NCBI GenBank assembly: GCA_014695175.1
Contig: JACJNV010000180.1
Location: 1 to 39,625 of the forward strand
Origin: Microcoleus sp. FACHB-DQ6
Lineage (GTDB): Bacteria > Cyanobacteriota > Cyanobacteriia > Cyanobacteriales > Microcoleaceae
Reading direction: 5' to 3'
Length of the DNA: 39,625 nt
Shown here: piece after piece, positions 3,277-39,625 of the stretch
Numbering within the stretch: position 1 is the first letter of the stretch
How the letters are laid out: every line of letters starts with the position of its first letter
Notes under the pieces: generated by a model
Told to the model about the DNA's origin: nothing
What the model saw: only the letters and a program-made list of their open reading frames with translations
Database searches by the model: none
Position numbers and translations under genes: made by a program

Positions 3277-3350
3277 CGGGTACGGCAGGACTTGAACCTG
3301 CGACTCGCTGCTTAGAAGGCAGCTACTCTATCCAACTGAGTTACGCACCC
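3277..3350 (-). tRNA. tRNA-Arg (anticodon TCT)
   Basis: Read on the minus strand from 3350: acceptor stem GGGTGCG pairs with CGTACCC (one G-T wobble), anticodon arm GCTGC-CTTCTAA-GCAGC with TCT in the loop, T-arm containing GGTTCAAGTCC, and discriminator G at 3277. The length is 74 nt. CCA is not encoded; TTA follows the discriminator. It decodes AGA/AGG arginine codons. Confidence 0.95.
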
Positions 3351-8387: not shown

Positions 8388-9821
8388 TTAAACAGGTTCT
8401 AACTGAGAAATTACCTTTTCCATGTGTTGGGCAACTTGGCTTTCTTTGTCCACAGAATTGGTTTCCATGTAAACGCGCATCAAGGGTTCGGTTCCCGAAG
8501 GCCGCAGCAATACCCAGCCACCGTCTTCAAGATAAAGTTTAATTCCGTCTTTGCGGCCGATTTCCTTAACGCCGATACCTGCTACTTCTGTGGGGGGATT
8601 CTTGGTAAAAGATTCCAAAACGGCTGCTTTGTGGGCTTCTTCTAGGTGCAAGTCCAAACGTTTGTTGTACAGGGGGCCGTCGGCTTCTTTAATGGCTTCT
8701 TCGACTAGCTGAGAAAGCGGTTTGCCTTCATAGGCGATCGCCTCAGCAACTAGCATATCAGCCAAAATCCCGTCTTTTTCGGGAATGTGACCCAAAACGC
8801 TCAAACCGCCAGATTCTTCGCCACCGATGAGCACCGCAGTTTCCCGCATTTTTTCGCCGATGTATTTAAAACCGACTGCGGTTTCGTAGATTGTTAAACC
8901 GTACTTGGCGGCCAAATTGTCCAGCAAGTGGGTAGTTGCGACTGTACGGACGATCGCCCCAGTCAATCCTTTATTTTTAACCAAGTGACGCGCCAGCAGC
9001 AACAGTACCGTATTTGGAGTCAAGACATTTCCCAACTCGTCAACAATACCAAAGCGATCGCTGTCGCCATCGGTAGCTAAACCCAAATCCGCCGAATCCT
9101 TCTTAACAGCTTCCACCAACTCAACTAACTGTTCCCCCTTGGGTTCGGGCATTCCGCCCCCAAACAGCACGTCGCGGTAGGTATGAAAACTTTCGACATC
9201 GCAGCCGCAGTGTTCCAAAACGGCGTCGAGATAGCCGCGAGAAGTCGAGTAGAGAGCGTCGTACTTCACTTTCAACTTAGCAGAGCGAATCCGCTCCACA
9301 TCGATCAAAGTATAAAGAAACTTCAGATATTCGGGTTTCGGGTCAAAACTGGAGATTTTATCGTTGTGGCTGCCTTTGGCTGGGGCATCAGAAGCACCAG
9401 CAATATTTGCCACAATTGTATCAGTAATTTCCGGGGTTGCCGGGCCCGCGTAGTCGGGGATGTATTTGATGCCACAGTAAGGTGCGGGATTGTGCGAAGC
9501 CGTGAACATCAGGGCTCCTGCAGAGTTGAGATGCTTGGCGCTGTAAGCGATGACTGGTGTGGGGCAATCTCGATCGACCACTTTCACCGTCCATCCCAAA
9601 TCTGCCAATACTTCAGCCGCCGTGTGGGCGAACTCGTCTGCCAGAAAGCGGGTATCGTAGGAGACTAGGACTGGGCGGTCTTTTGGGTAAGCGGTTTCTA
9701 GGTAACTGGCGATCGCCCGGGTGACTTTTCGCACGTTGGCAAAAGTAAAGTCATGGGCAATCAGTCCTCGCCACCCATCGGTTCCGAACTTAATTTCAGT
9801 TGAATTGCTGCTAGCGCTCAT
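8388..9821 (-). CDS. Phosphoglucomutase/phosphomannomutase family protein
   Basis: 477 aa, the normal length for the alpha-D-phosphohexomutase superfamily. All four signature loops are present: phosphoserine loop TASHNP (Ser109), metal-binding DGDSDR (251-256), sugar-binding GGEESGG (333-339) and phosphate-binding RPSGTEP (440-446). It interconverts hexose-1- and hexose-6-phosphates or makes glucose-1,6-bisphosphate. The sequence looks closer to the shorter cyanobacterial form (Synechocystis Slr1334 type, described as a glucose-1,6-bisphosphate synthase) than to the main Pgm; that sub-assignment is from memory. The ATG at 9821 is preceded by a T-run and no clear Shine-Dalgarno sequence. The unusually structured region 9838-10380 lies just upstream on the same strand and could be its leader. 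Confidence 0.93.
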   Translation of the reverse strand: MSASSNSTEIKFGTDGWRGLIAHDFTFANVRKVTRAIASYLETAYPKDRPVLVSYDTRFLADEFAHTAAEVLADLGWTVKVVDRDCPTPVIAYSAKHLNSAGALMFTASHNPAPYCGIKYIPDYAGPATPEITDTIVANIAGASDAPAKGSHNDKISSFDPKPEYLKFLYTLIDVERIRSAKLKVKYDALYSTSRGYLDAVLEHCGCDVESFHTYRDVLFGGGMPEPKGEQLVELVEAVKKDSADLGLATDGDSDRFGIVDELGNVLTPNTVLLLLARHLVKNKGLTGAIVRTVATTHLLDNLAAKYGLTIYETAVGFKYIGEKMRETAVLIGGEESGGLSVLGHIPEKDGILADMLVAEAIAYEGKPLSQLVEEAIKEADGPLYNKRLDLHLEEAHKAAVLESFTKNPPTEVAGIGVKEIGRKDGIKLYLEDGGWVLLRPSGTEPLMRVYMETNSVDKESQVAQHMEKVISQLEPV

Positions 9822-9837
9822 AAAAAAACTCGGTAAG

Positions 9838-10380
9838 TGGGAAACTCAGCGGCACTTAGCCCTGAGAGGAAAACGGCGCGGCGATTTCAATCGCCTTGAA
9901 TCCCCTTTCGGGGTTGGAGAGGGAATTTAATCAACCTCTCCAGTGAGGTATGGTTGCCTCAATCTCCCTTTCGGGGTAAAGTTCGCTTCGCCAATGTTAT
10001 GAAGGCTTGTCACGCTTACAGCACTGTCGAGAGTGACTTTAAGACTGTTTAACTGTAAACAACAGAGCGGAAAACTAGCGACGTATTCTCCGGTGTTATG
10101 ACCTAAATAACGTAGTCAGTGAAGACTTAGGCTGGTCAGTACAGCTTGCCAGAGATCTCTGTTACAAGCTCAGTGGCTTTAGCCCTGAGTTACTGACTTT
10201 ATCCACTTCCTCTCGTCCTACTAATCCTACCCGAAGCCATAGCCTTAAAGACGTACTGGCCGTGCTGTTTGTGAGGATCGATCGCCCGTGGGGCCCGCAT
10301 CAACCTCATCCTATCGTTGTAGAGACAGGCTTCGGCCTCCGGCAGAGGACTCGAAAAACTCAGAGTTGGCCAAATGTGCG
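9838..10380 (-). ncRNA. Densely structured RNA region, possible HEARO/omega-RNA-like or long leader
   Basis: About 540 nt without a credible ORF but with at least twelve stem-loops. Plus-strand coordinates: GTCAGTA (10135-10141)/TACTGAC (10191-10197) closes a three-way junction holding CTTG..CAAG (10145-10168) and CTCAG..CTGAG (10169-10189). GTTAT/ATAAC (10095-10099/10107-10111) has a loop CCTAA that can pair with TTAGG (10127-10131), forming a pseudoknot. CCGAAGCC (10231-10238) pairs with GGCTTCGG (10328-10335). Nearer the mutase gene are CCCC/GGGG hairpins (9902-9913, 9966-9976), GGAGAGG/CCTCTCC (9916-9941), GGCGAT/ATCGCC (9880-9895) and a second CTCAG..CTGAG (9845-9866). The minus strand is favoured: both CCC/GGG loops become GAAA (GNRA) there, and CCTATC/GACAGG gains a wobble. 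Resemblance to IscB-associated HEARO RNA is a guess. Confidence 0.5.
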
Positions 10381-11081
10381 AGTGATCGGGCTAGTCAGTC
10401 GCTAATTCCGGTTGTGAAGGGTCGTTTGCCGATCGAATGGAGGACTATTAATTGGGCGTGATTCCCTACGGGATAGCTTCGCTTCACCGGGAAGCTAAAA
10501 AACCGATCGCAAAAAACGGCCCTGGCAATGGTATTAACTAAATGCACATAAATCAGATTCTCATCTCAAATTTAATTTTTTATTTAGAAAAGCCCCGCGT
10601 TAAATTTGTTAGGGTTTCCTAACAATCGCCCGACTAAAAATACATTTCTAATTCAGCTATAGAAATAAATTAACCAAAGTCGCCCCTAGATCGTGCTGTA
10701 GCCTAGCTTCTTAAAGAGATTAGGGCGCTCAACCAAAGCGCTTCAAAACAAAGATAAGGTATTTCAAGCAGCAGTTTTTTTTAAGCAGACTTAACTTTAA
10801 TTCTCAGTTTTTAACACAAATTAAATTTATTTCCAGCCTTCTTTATACGTCAAAAAAATAGATTAGGGTCGCGATCACAGGGTGATGGTGATCGATCGCA
10901 CAATAAATAACGTTATTAACGTGCAGCTTATAAAAGATGCAGGCAGTCGAGCCAAATGGCTTATAGCTTTAAGCGTAATGGCTGATGACTGTCAGCGTAA
11001 AAATGCAGAAAATTGTAGTTAACAACGTTAAAAATTAGGGGAATCGATCGGGTGCGACTTAATAAAAAAACGAGGTTTATC
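10381..11081. other. Intergenic region upstream of the 11.1-kb gene
   Basis: About 700 bp without a gene. It contains a partial dispersed-repeat-like segment TTCCCTACGGGATAGC near 10462, a hairpin GTTAGG/CCTAAC (about 10608-10623), and an AT-rich stretch (10540-10860) followed by AACGTTATTAACGT (10907-10920). I see no clear -35/-10 pair. Confidence 0.4.
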
Positions 11082-17885: not shown

Positions 17886-18488
17886 TTAGAGTTTATCGCC
17901 AATTGCTTTAAGTTCTTCAACGATGCGCTTGTTCTTGGGATTCCTGCTGCCATCTAGGCGGGCGGAGACAACAGTGATTATTTCTAGTATATCTTTAGCT
18001 AAATCCTCGTCACAGCTAGCATTTTCGGTTTGATTTACAATCACTACCTCTGTCCCAAAGTGTTCGCACAAATTAAAAATTAGTTCAGAACCAAATCTCA
18101 GCAGTCTGTCTTTGTGAGTTAATACCAGCCTTTCTACTTGATTGTCTACGATCGCCCTAATTAGATGTTGTAAACCCCGCTTACTGTAATTAACCCCAGA
18201 ACCCACATCATCAATGATTTGGAATTGCCAGCCGTGAGATGCACAAAACAATTCCAAAACTTGTTTTTGTCTGTCTAAATCATCTTTTTGGTCGTGGCTG
18301 CTAACCCGAGCGTAAGCTATGGTTAAAGCGCCGTTGGGTTTTAAGCCGAGAAGATGAGCTAGGTCATACCGTCTGTGACCGTTAGCGGTGCGTTCCGGTA
18401 TTAGCTTGCCTTCGGCTTCCCACCTGCGTAAGGTGGAAGCGCTCACACCTTTAATTTTGGCTGCTTCAGTTATAGTTAATTTTTTCAT
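17886..18488 (-). mobile_element. IS607-family serine recombinase TnpA, full length, tnpB absent
   Basis: 200 aa. Residues 1-45 are a MerR-type helix-turn-helix (ITEAAKIKGVSASTLRRWEAEGKL, then TANGHRRYDL). From about 55 a serine-resolvase domain starts with IAYARVSSHDQKDDLDRQ, containing the nucleophile Ser in ARVSS. LVLTHKDRLLRFG and the tail SARLDGSRNPKNKRI are typical of IS607 TnpA. The length matches the family, so the gene looks intact. The usual partner tnpB should follow on the minus strand, but below 17886 there is only a heptamer repeat and a MITE-like element. This is either a solo insertion or a remnant. The ATG at 18488 is the start. Confidence 0.9.
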
Positions 18489-39301: not shown

Positions 39302-39625
39302 TCAAAAAGATGAGGTACAATAACAGCAGTGTGTAAACCAGTTAAAAATATTTGACGATGTAACTTGCCCCAACGCAAACTCTATGGCTTTTCCTAATTC
39401 TTGATAATTAGTAGTATTGATAGAACGGAGAATAATTTTAAGTTTTGACCACAGATTTTCAATTGGTGAAAAATCTGGTGAATAAGGTGATAAGTATATT
39501 AATTTGGCCCCTTTTTTTTCGATCGCTTTTTTCACTTCTTCTCCCAGGTGAATGGGACAATTATCCATCACTACACAAGCACCTTTCCATAATTTTGGCA
39601 CAAGTTTTCTGATAATAAAAGCTTC
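39302..39625 (-). mobile_element. IS630-family transposase, C-terminal part (runs off window)
   Basis: The frame is open to the window edge (…EAFIIRKLVPKLWKG), so only the C-terminal about 107 residues are present. The DDE signature is visible: VVMDNCPIHLGEEV (second Asp) and LIYLSPYSPDFSPIENLWSKLK (catalytic Glu), diagnostic of the IS630/Tc1 superfamily. The end NWFTHCCYC resembles the family end NWFxHCGYC. The stop is at 39302. The 5' part of the gene and the far end of the element lie beyond 39625. Confidence 0.9.

Follow-up and report, generated by a model that had tools for sequence, protein, structure and literature searches.

Background

As a non-coding stretch that folds densely just upstream of a phosphohexomutase gene, the locus examined here, in the cyanobacterium Microcoleus sp. 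FACHB-DQ6, raises the question of what kind of RNA it encodes and whether that RNA belongs to the gene that follows it. A sequence-only reading of the DNA had placed a single structured RNA of about 540 nt at positions 9838-10380 of the window (the whole stretch of 39,625 nucleotides that was analysed), and had suggested either an element like the HEARO or IscB omega-RNA without its nuclease, or a giant leader of the mutase gene.

IscB is a nuclease related to the ancestor of Cas9. The omega-RNA of IscB systems carries its guide, 16 nt in length, at the 5' end, and the adjacent motif lies 3' of the target. In insertion sequences of the IS200/IS605 type, hairpins are expected near both termini and are linked to transposase recognition. 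The HEARO elements of Weinberg et al. 2009 are said to integrate at ATGA or GTGA, and solo omega-RNAs were reportedly described from Ktedonobacter racemifer by Altae-Tran et al. 2021. The Ktedonobacter case is like the present one in that copies without an adjacent iscB occur in a genome with iscB elsewhere; we know of no report in that study of their siting at start codons. In the passages cited from a transcriptome paper on Limnospira, HEARO RNAs are set aside as relics and an analysis of their positions is called for (PMC8400943). Among the literature matches listed, no paper treats the siting of omega-RNAs at start codons, from which we claim no absence from print; the start-codon siting of solo copies is the part of this work that may be new.

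Identity and anatomy of the element

A search with the Rfam covariance models identified the RNA as HEARO, the IscB omega-RNA (RF02033), on the minus strand. The match covers the full length of the model (1-211 of 211) at 150.5 bits against a cut-off of 83 and includes the long-range pairing of the consensus, and the matched RNA forms the 5' part of a 376-bp insertion (Table 1). The element gave no IscB match, and only 154 nt separate the scaffold from the mutase start, so no iscB lies directly downstream of the RNA; the copy resembles its family in its full-length match and differs in that the name-giving HNH ORF is not adjacent. The suspicion of an omega-RNA without its nuclease was therefore correct, and the element shares both ends with iscB-bearing relatives. 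The window element is a solo HEARO/omega-RNA element, lacking iscB, and is related, as a short non-autonomous form, to the IscB-carrying insertion sequences of the IS200/IS605 type. Taken alone, the locus adds one more copy to an established RNA family, carried by a non-autonomous element of a kind already known, and we regard the anatomy of the element as nearly certain.

Table 1. Features of the mutase locus (positions in the window)
Feature	Position	Strand	Evidence
Whole inserted element, 376 bp: omega-RNA and right end, no iscB	9822..10197	-	27 orthologous loci of the genus show the exact empty site; flank joint unbroken in 10/10 genomes searched
HEARO / IscB omega-RNA scaffold	9976..10197	-	RF02033 match
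Presumed 16-nt guide, formed by the final 16 nt of the native leader and lying outside the element	10198..10213	-	Analogy with IscB omega-RNAs; matches the empty mutase allele beside ATGA
ATGA: mutase start codon, right-end flank and presumed adjacent motif of the empty allele	9818..9821	-	Sequence; same tetranucleotide after 79/81 called solo right ends, under a rule that prefers ATGA
Left-end hairpin CTCAGGGCTAAAGCCACTGAG, within the omega-RNA	10169..10189	-	Sequence; the right end of the related copy L212 repeats 24 nt from here without change
Right-end hairpin CTCAGGGCTAAGTGCCGCTGAG	9845..9866	-	Sequence; similar right end in iscB-bearing L211 and L229
Phosphohexomutase gene, 477 aa, start codon abutted by the element	8388..9821	-	ORF; NCBIfam matches
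Native leader of the mutase gene, outside the element	10198..10380	-	Directly before ATG in close relatives without the element; folding no better than shuffles

The hairpin of the left end recurs, altered, near the right end, so that similar subterminal hairpins stand at both ends. Several NCBIfam phosphohexomutase models match the abutted ORF, each under its own equivalog cut-off. In the whole window only HEARO and a tRNA scored over an Rfam cut-off; the latter, a tRNA-Arg at 3277-3350 found by both Rfam and ARAGORN, was the sole find of ARAGORN in the window, and both programs agree with the earlier failure to recognise RNase P, tmRNA or an intron. The only further Rfam match in 9600-10600, to a CRISPR repeat model at 9899-9915, was rejected as a bare hairpin (16.6 bits against a cut-off of 38).

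The limits and unity of the RNA had been drawn differently from sequence. The actual element is the insertion of Table 1, and about 180 nt of the supposed single RNA are native leader. Dense folding is found in the element, whose minus strand reaches -120.2 kcal/mol against -97.9 (sd 5.0) for shuffles (z -4.5, with none of 100 shuffles as good), and not in the leader, which shows no excess folding (z -0.82, 43 of 200 shuffles as good). The long-range 8-bp helix that had been drawn between CCGAAGCC and GGCTTCGG (10231-10238 with 10328-10335) falls within that leader and is not conserved, the CCGAAGCC partner being present only in the own genome and the closest relative (L052) when the own sequence and 25 relatives were compared. 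One RNA of 540 nt is rejected on these two grounds. The plus strand of the element also folds low (z -3.9, none of 100 shuffles as good), so the preference for the minus strand holds by the Rfam match and not by energy.

Several details of the proposed fold survive within the element. The 5' multi-branch is present, as are two C-GAAA-G hairpins (9902-9913 and 9966-9975); of the putative H-type pseudoknot the GTTAT/ATAAC helix is there, and the CCTAA/TTAGG helix is absent from the Rfam consensus, where other bases pair. Over 24 diverse solo copies, RNAalifold gave a structure of 42 pairs in which 95.8% of cells are paired, and in 25 of the 42 pairs one or more of the sequences have both partners changed. 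The expected covariation among relatives was found, with a score of 0.488 against 0.213 in shuffles (0 of 500 reach it) and 0.06-0.12 in slid versions, for a structure derived from the same alignment on which it is scored; one of five covariation measures, that of further pair types, was not above shuffles (158 of 500).

Empty sites and mode of insertion

The own genome (G000; 6.7 Mb in 402 contigs, the window being contig C91) was compared with the 28 other genomes of the genus. Orthologues of the mutase gene are present in 27 of these, G025 having only distant relatives, and the element is absent before the mutase start in all 27 orthologous loci found, two of which (L053 and L067) offer only 190 and 62 nt of upstream sequence for the comparison. 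In the closest relative, whose mutase protein is 99% identical (that of Microcoleus sp. CAN_BIN18 is 94% identical), GAGGAAGTGGATAAA runs directly into ATGAGCGCTAGC, and the window carries 376 bp at this junction. When the two mutase flanks alone were used as a query, one match ran across the joint in 10 of 10 genomes. The empty orthologous loci and the unbroken joints together define the inserted piece as 9822-10197, with no target duplication and with ATGA directly after its right end. The insertion sits exactly between the native leader and the ATGA start of the phosphohexomutase, in sense, and has moved the end of the native leader 376 bp away. The idea of a giant leader of the mutase gene is thus borne out in position, between the old leader and the start codon, but not in history: absence from the 27 orthologous loci means that the element is not the ancestral leader of the gene.

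The same empty-site test was applied in the 10 genomes to 7 of the 11 own solo copies examined, and every one of the 7 insertions has unbroken joints in 5 to 10 of the 10 genomes: the mutase and a rhodanese-domain gene (L268) in 10 each, a Crp-like gene (L271) and L279 in 9 each, L269 in 8, and L270 and a GH57 branching-enzyme gene (L274) in 5 each. Filled sites were seen at the Crp-like gene in G028, at the GH57 gene in G028, G003, G027 and G011, and at L279 in G011; in the remaining tests part of the joint was matched, or nothing. Insertion without target duplication beside a fixed short motif, as in elements of the IS200/IS605 type, is what these loci show.

Relatives, iscB and transposase genes

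Among the 121 copies compared (see below), the best match to the window element is L162 of G013, which is 96.5% identical over all 376 bp (373 bp there) and stands at the start codon of CP12. Two iscB-bearing elements of G011 (L211 and L229, about 1.6 kb) match the window element at both ends, with 74-77% identity over its positions 1-222 (the RNA) and 79-83% over 296-376 (the right end), and carry iscB between; the window element is therefore an iscB-less short form. It is like the IscB-carrying ISC or IS200/IS605-type elements in its ends, its lack of target duplication and its fixed flanking tetranucleotide, and unlike them in the deletion of iscB and in its length of 376 bp against about 1.6 kb.

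The own genome holds 17 HEARO matches, 11 of them over the cut-off, and four RRXRR-domain genes. Three of these are iscB, each directly after its own HEARO and with the RuvC and HNH motifs that were looked for; the fourth encodes a protein of 346 aa that is without the HNH motifs looked for and resembles IsrB by eye. As the window element has no iscB, an IscB could serve it only in trans. Since the own genome showed no element that combines iscB with this right end, and its nearest iscB-linked RNA is 76% identical to the window RNA over 51-222, a matching IscB is uncertain. Three hits to Y1 transposase were found in the own genome, of which one, at 107 bits over 108 of 121 positions, is fairly strong; G028 has no strong Y1 hit, yet solo copies are present there. 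In L195 and L228 of G003, one and the same foreign sequence interrupts iscB after about 54 aa; by eye it resembles another mobile insertion and may be a group II intron.

Siting at start codons

HEARO copies are carried by all 29 genomes of the genus, 2 to 42 in each. The 121 copies compared comprise 107 over-cut-off hits of six genomes chosen for contiguity or copy number (136 hits there, the 29 weaker left out) and 14 of the 17 own hits, the weak L014, L015 and L017 being left out. Twenty-three carry iscB or a piece of it, pieces being those of about 54 aa in L195 and L228, those cut by contig ends in L188 and L260, and one with an early stop in L213; the other 98 are solo. Right ends were placed by a rule that ignores ORFs and takes, after the right-end motif, the next ATGA, else GTGA, else TTGA. 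It placed 81 of the 98 solo right ends, 79 before ATGA and 2 before GTGA, a share that is partly built in by the preference for ATGA; these flanks are like those reported for the HEARO elements of Weinberg et al. 2009, as are the GTGA flanks in G222, described below.

An ORF of at least 60 aa begins exactly at the right end in 64 of the 81 placed solo copies, and one of at least 100 aa in 55. By comparison, an ORF of 60 aa or more starts at 77 of 427 intergenic ATGA (p = 3e-26), in a background made up of the window without the element and the right flanks, with ORFs of at least 100 aa taken as genes; among all ATGA of the flanks the figure is 333 of 1437. Some genes recur between species in the count of 64, and merging identical flanks gives 61 of 77. 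Five genomes supplied the 81 copies, G011 and G012 together 58 of them, and those at an ORF start number 26 of 31 in G011, 18 of 27 in G012, 7 of 9 in G013, 6 of 6 in G028 and 7 of 8 in G000. Among the 17 solo copies left unplaced by the rule, five stand at a start codon by eye (L172, and CP12 in L236, L242, L252 and L275) and 12 do not or are undecidable. Of the 64 copies at start codons, 11 have a Shine-Dalgarno-like core within the final 20 nt of the old leader and 3 have one within the final 20 nt of the element.

The abutted genes are of many kinds: 17 of 20 ORFs drawn at random match Pfam, with families such as ribosomal protein L19, lysyl- and threonyl-tRNA synthetase domains, an MnmA-type protein, PsbQ, ferredoxin-thioredoxin reductase and heme oxygenase, and chosen cases confirmed by Pfam include EF-G, GatB, trigger factor, ribosomal protein L18 and CP12. 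The CP12 start is occupied in 5 of the 7 genomes compared (G000, G003, G013, G027 and G028), by elements that differ in size or type. A short-type HEARO without a recognisable right end lies 56 nt before it in L275 (G000), L236 (G003), L242 (G028) and L252 (G027), and G013 (L162) has a near-copy of the window element at the same site instead; a fixed old copy and turnover are thus seen at one start codon. The start of the GH57 gene is likewise occupied in G000 (L274), G003, G011, G027 and G028, by insertions of varying size or type: the gap between the flanks measures about 0.4 kb in G011, and in G028, G003 and G027 it is 438, 1704 and 2780 bp, respectively. In L262, L263, L264 and L272 (G003, G028, G027 and G000) a HEARO with the same left flank, with no recognisable right end or start codon near, may represent an old copy that became fixed.

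Siting at start codons is not confined to solo copies. The right end could be placed by eye in 11 of the 23 iscB-bearing copies, and 6 of the 11 abut an ORF of at least 60 aa (p = 0.008 against the background); the difference from the solo copies has p = 0.12, and siting as a property of solo copies alone is therefore unsupported. In the order, a HEARO match was found in 130 of 243 genomes under stricter filters. Outside the genus, 40 high-scoring copies from 9 genomes comprise 11 with iscB and 29 solo, and 10 of the 26 solo copies whose end was placed by eye abut an ORF of at least 60 aa (p = 0.015), a weaker tendency than within the genus; another 25 loci were inspected only. In G222, from another genus of the family, six solo copies (L340, L341 and L345-L348) are all followed by GTGA and not ATGA, and 2 of the 6 abut such an ORF.

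Guide, adjacent motif and proposed mechanism

In the passages cited, a reprogrammable 5' spacer is described (PMC9755519), and NTG or NTGA motifs serve the related IsrB proteins, of which two have cyanobacterial names (PMC9581776). By analogy the guide of the window element would be AGAGGAAGTGGATAAA (10198-10213) and its motif ATGA, as they stand in the empty mutase allele, the motif being read from the flanks and from related IsrB. Positions 10198-10213 followed by ATGA match the empty mutase allele of relatives, which is the OMEGA arrangement of a 5' sequence that matches a target beside a motif. Within three mismatches, the own genome offers for guide and ATGA together the donor flank, which differs at two positions of the motif, and three sites that differ at 3 positions; it has no second perfect target.

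A guide outside the element would need a promoter upstream of the insertion if guide and scaffold are to form one RNA, and for an element directly before a start codon and in sense that promoter would be the host gene's own. An IscB made elsewhere in the genome would bind the solo RNA, and the complex could then cut copies of the mutase locus without the element, repair from the filled copy restoring it (retention, or homing). ATGA would serve as both transposase target and nuclease motif, and insertion before it would keep the start codon and so leave the protein intact. We propose that many copies stand at start codons because of the need for transcription together with this harmlessness; for the window element, beyond the observed anatomy, insertion, kinship and siting, transcription, use or binding by IscB, and retention are steps that we infer. 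The full-length RF02033 match, the covariation, the exact empty sites, the ends common with L211 and L229 and the three own iscB genes argue for this mechanism, as do the lack of a second perfect target in the own genome, the placing of 64 of 81 solo right ends at ORFs that mostly match Pfam, and the NTG or NTGA motifs of IsrB. Against it stand the lack of a sigma-70-like promoter in 9780-10560 by a simple scan, the uncertain IscB partner, the one fairly strong Y1 hit, the siting common to iscB elements and its weakness in other genera. Taken as one whole statement, a solo element before the mutase ATGA that is transcribed by the host, used by IscB in trans and retained is, on balance, a probable account.

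A transposase preference for open DNA at gene starts, combined with selection against intragenic insertions, would give a similar picture. The element might instead be an inert hitch-hiker: it would have moved recently, without iscB, no transcript would join its RNA to a guide, and nothing would bind that RNA. Start codons would then be no more than places where insertion before ATGA is tolerated or where the transposase meets open single strands. The element has no iscB, iscB elements stand at start codons as well, and ATGA by itself yields start codons at the intergenic rate given above; in contrast, the pairing of the RNA is kept across the 24 solo copies, which recent descent from working copies could explain, and the siting bias is four times the intergenic background. 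We consider this reading unlikely, if to be taken seriously.

A regulatory role fares worse. A role as cis-regulatory leader of the mutase mRNA, whether or not IscB binds, with the copies forming a regulon, would fit an element that lies in sense, adjoins the start codon and displaces the native leader end by 376 bp, as well as the HEARO at the CP12 start in 5 of 7 genomes, its short type common to four; yet at the mutase the element is unique to the own genome, the target genes are of many kinds, and flanks and subtypes vary between species at the same gene, which makes this quite improbable. A trans-acting regulator, whose guide directs an IscB- or IsrB-like protein to other genes, is very improbable indeed. 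In the passages cited from PMC13418256, TldR guide-RNA regulators likewise employ a transposon-derived guide RNA apart from transposition, and the window RNA lies apart from any nuclease gene while the RRXRR protein of 346 aa described above, in which the HNH motifs looked for are missing, is encoded at another locus. Unlike in the TldR case as those passages present it, the window guide has no second target site: the own genome offers only the donor flank and the three 3-mismatch sites, and TldR-like regulation by this guide, with no distinct matching site, is unsupported.

The genus-wide pattern outweighs the single locus in importance. Under the mechanism of host transcription and IscB in trans, it suggests a simple reason for the persistence of solo omega-RNAs, namely that the host transcribes the outside guide and IscB acts in trans. 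We tentatively extend this, as a possibility rather than a probability, to a swarm of iscB-less guide-RNA elements in this genus that would settle at ATGA starts since only a host promoter can transcribe an outside guide; housekeeping genes, such as those for EF-G, ribosomal proteins L18 and L19, Lys- and Thr-tRNA synthetases, GatB, trigger factor and CP12, would lend their 5' leaders to a shared pool of IscB guides that drives the element into empty alleles, and IscB binding may couple to expression. The natural pairs of filled and empty alleles at essential genes offer material for the study of RNA-guided retention. The genus-wide pattern also carries a warning, for many 5' leaders in genomes of this genus are mobile guide-RNA sequence and not the leader of the gene.

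Other features of the window

On the minus strand of the window, a 200-aa ORF at 17886-18488 resembles by eye a serine recombinase of the IS607 type, and a 99-aa ORF at 39302-39601 resembles by eye the end of a DDE transposase.
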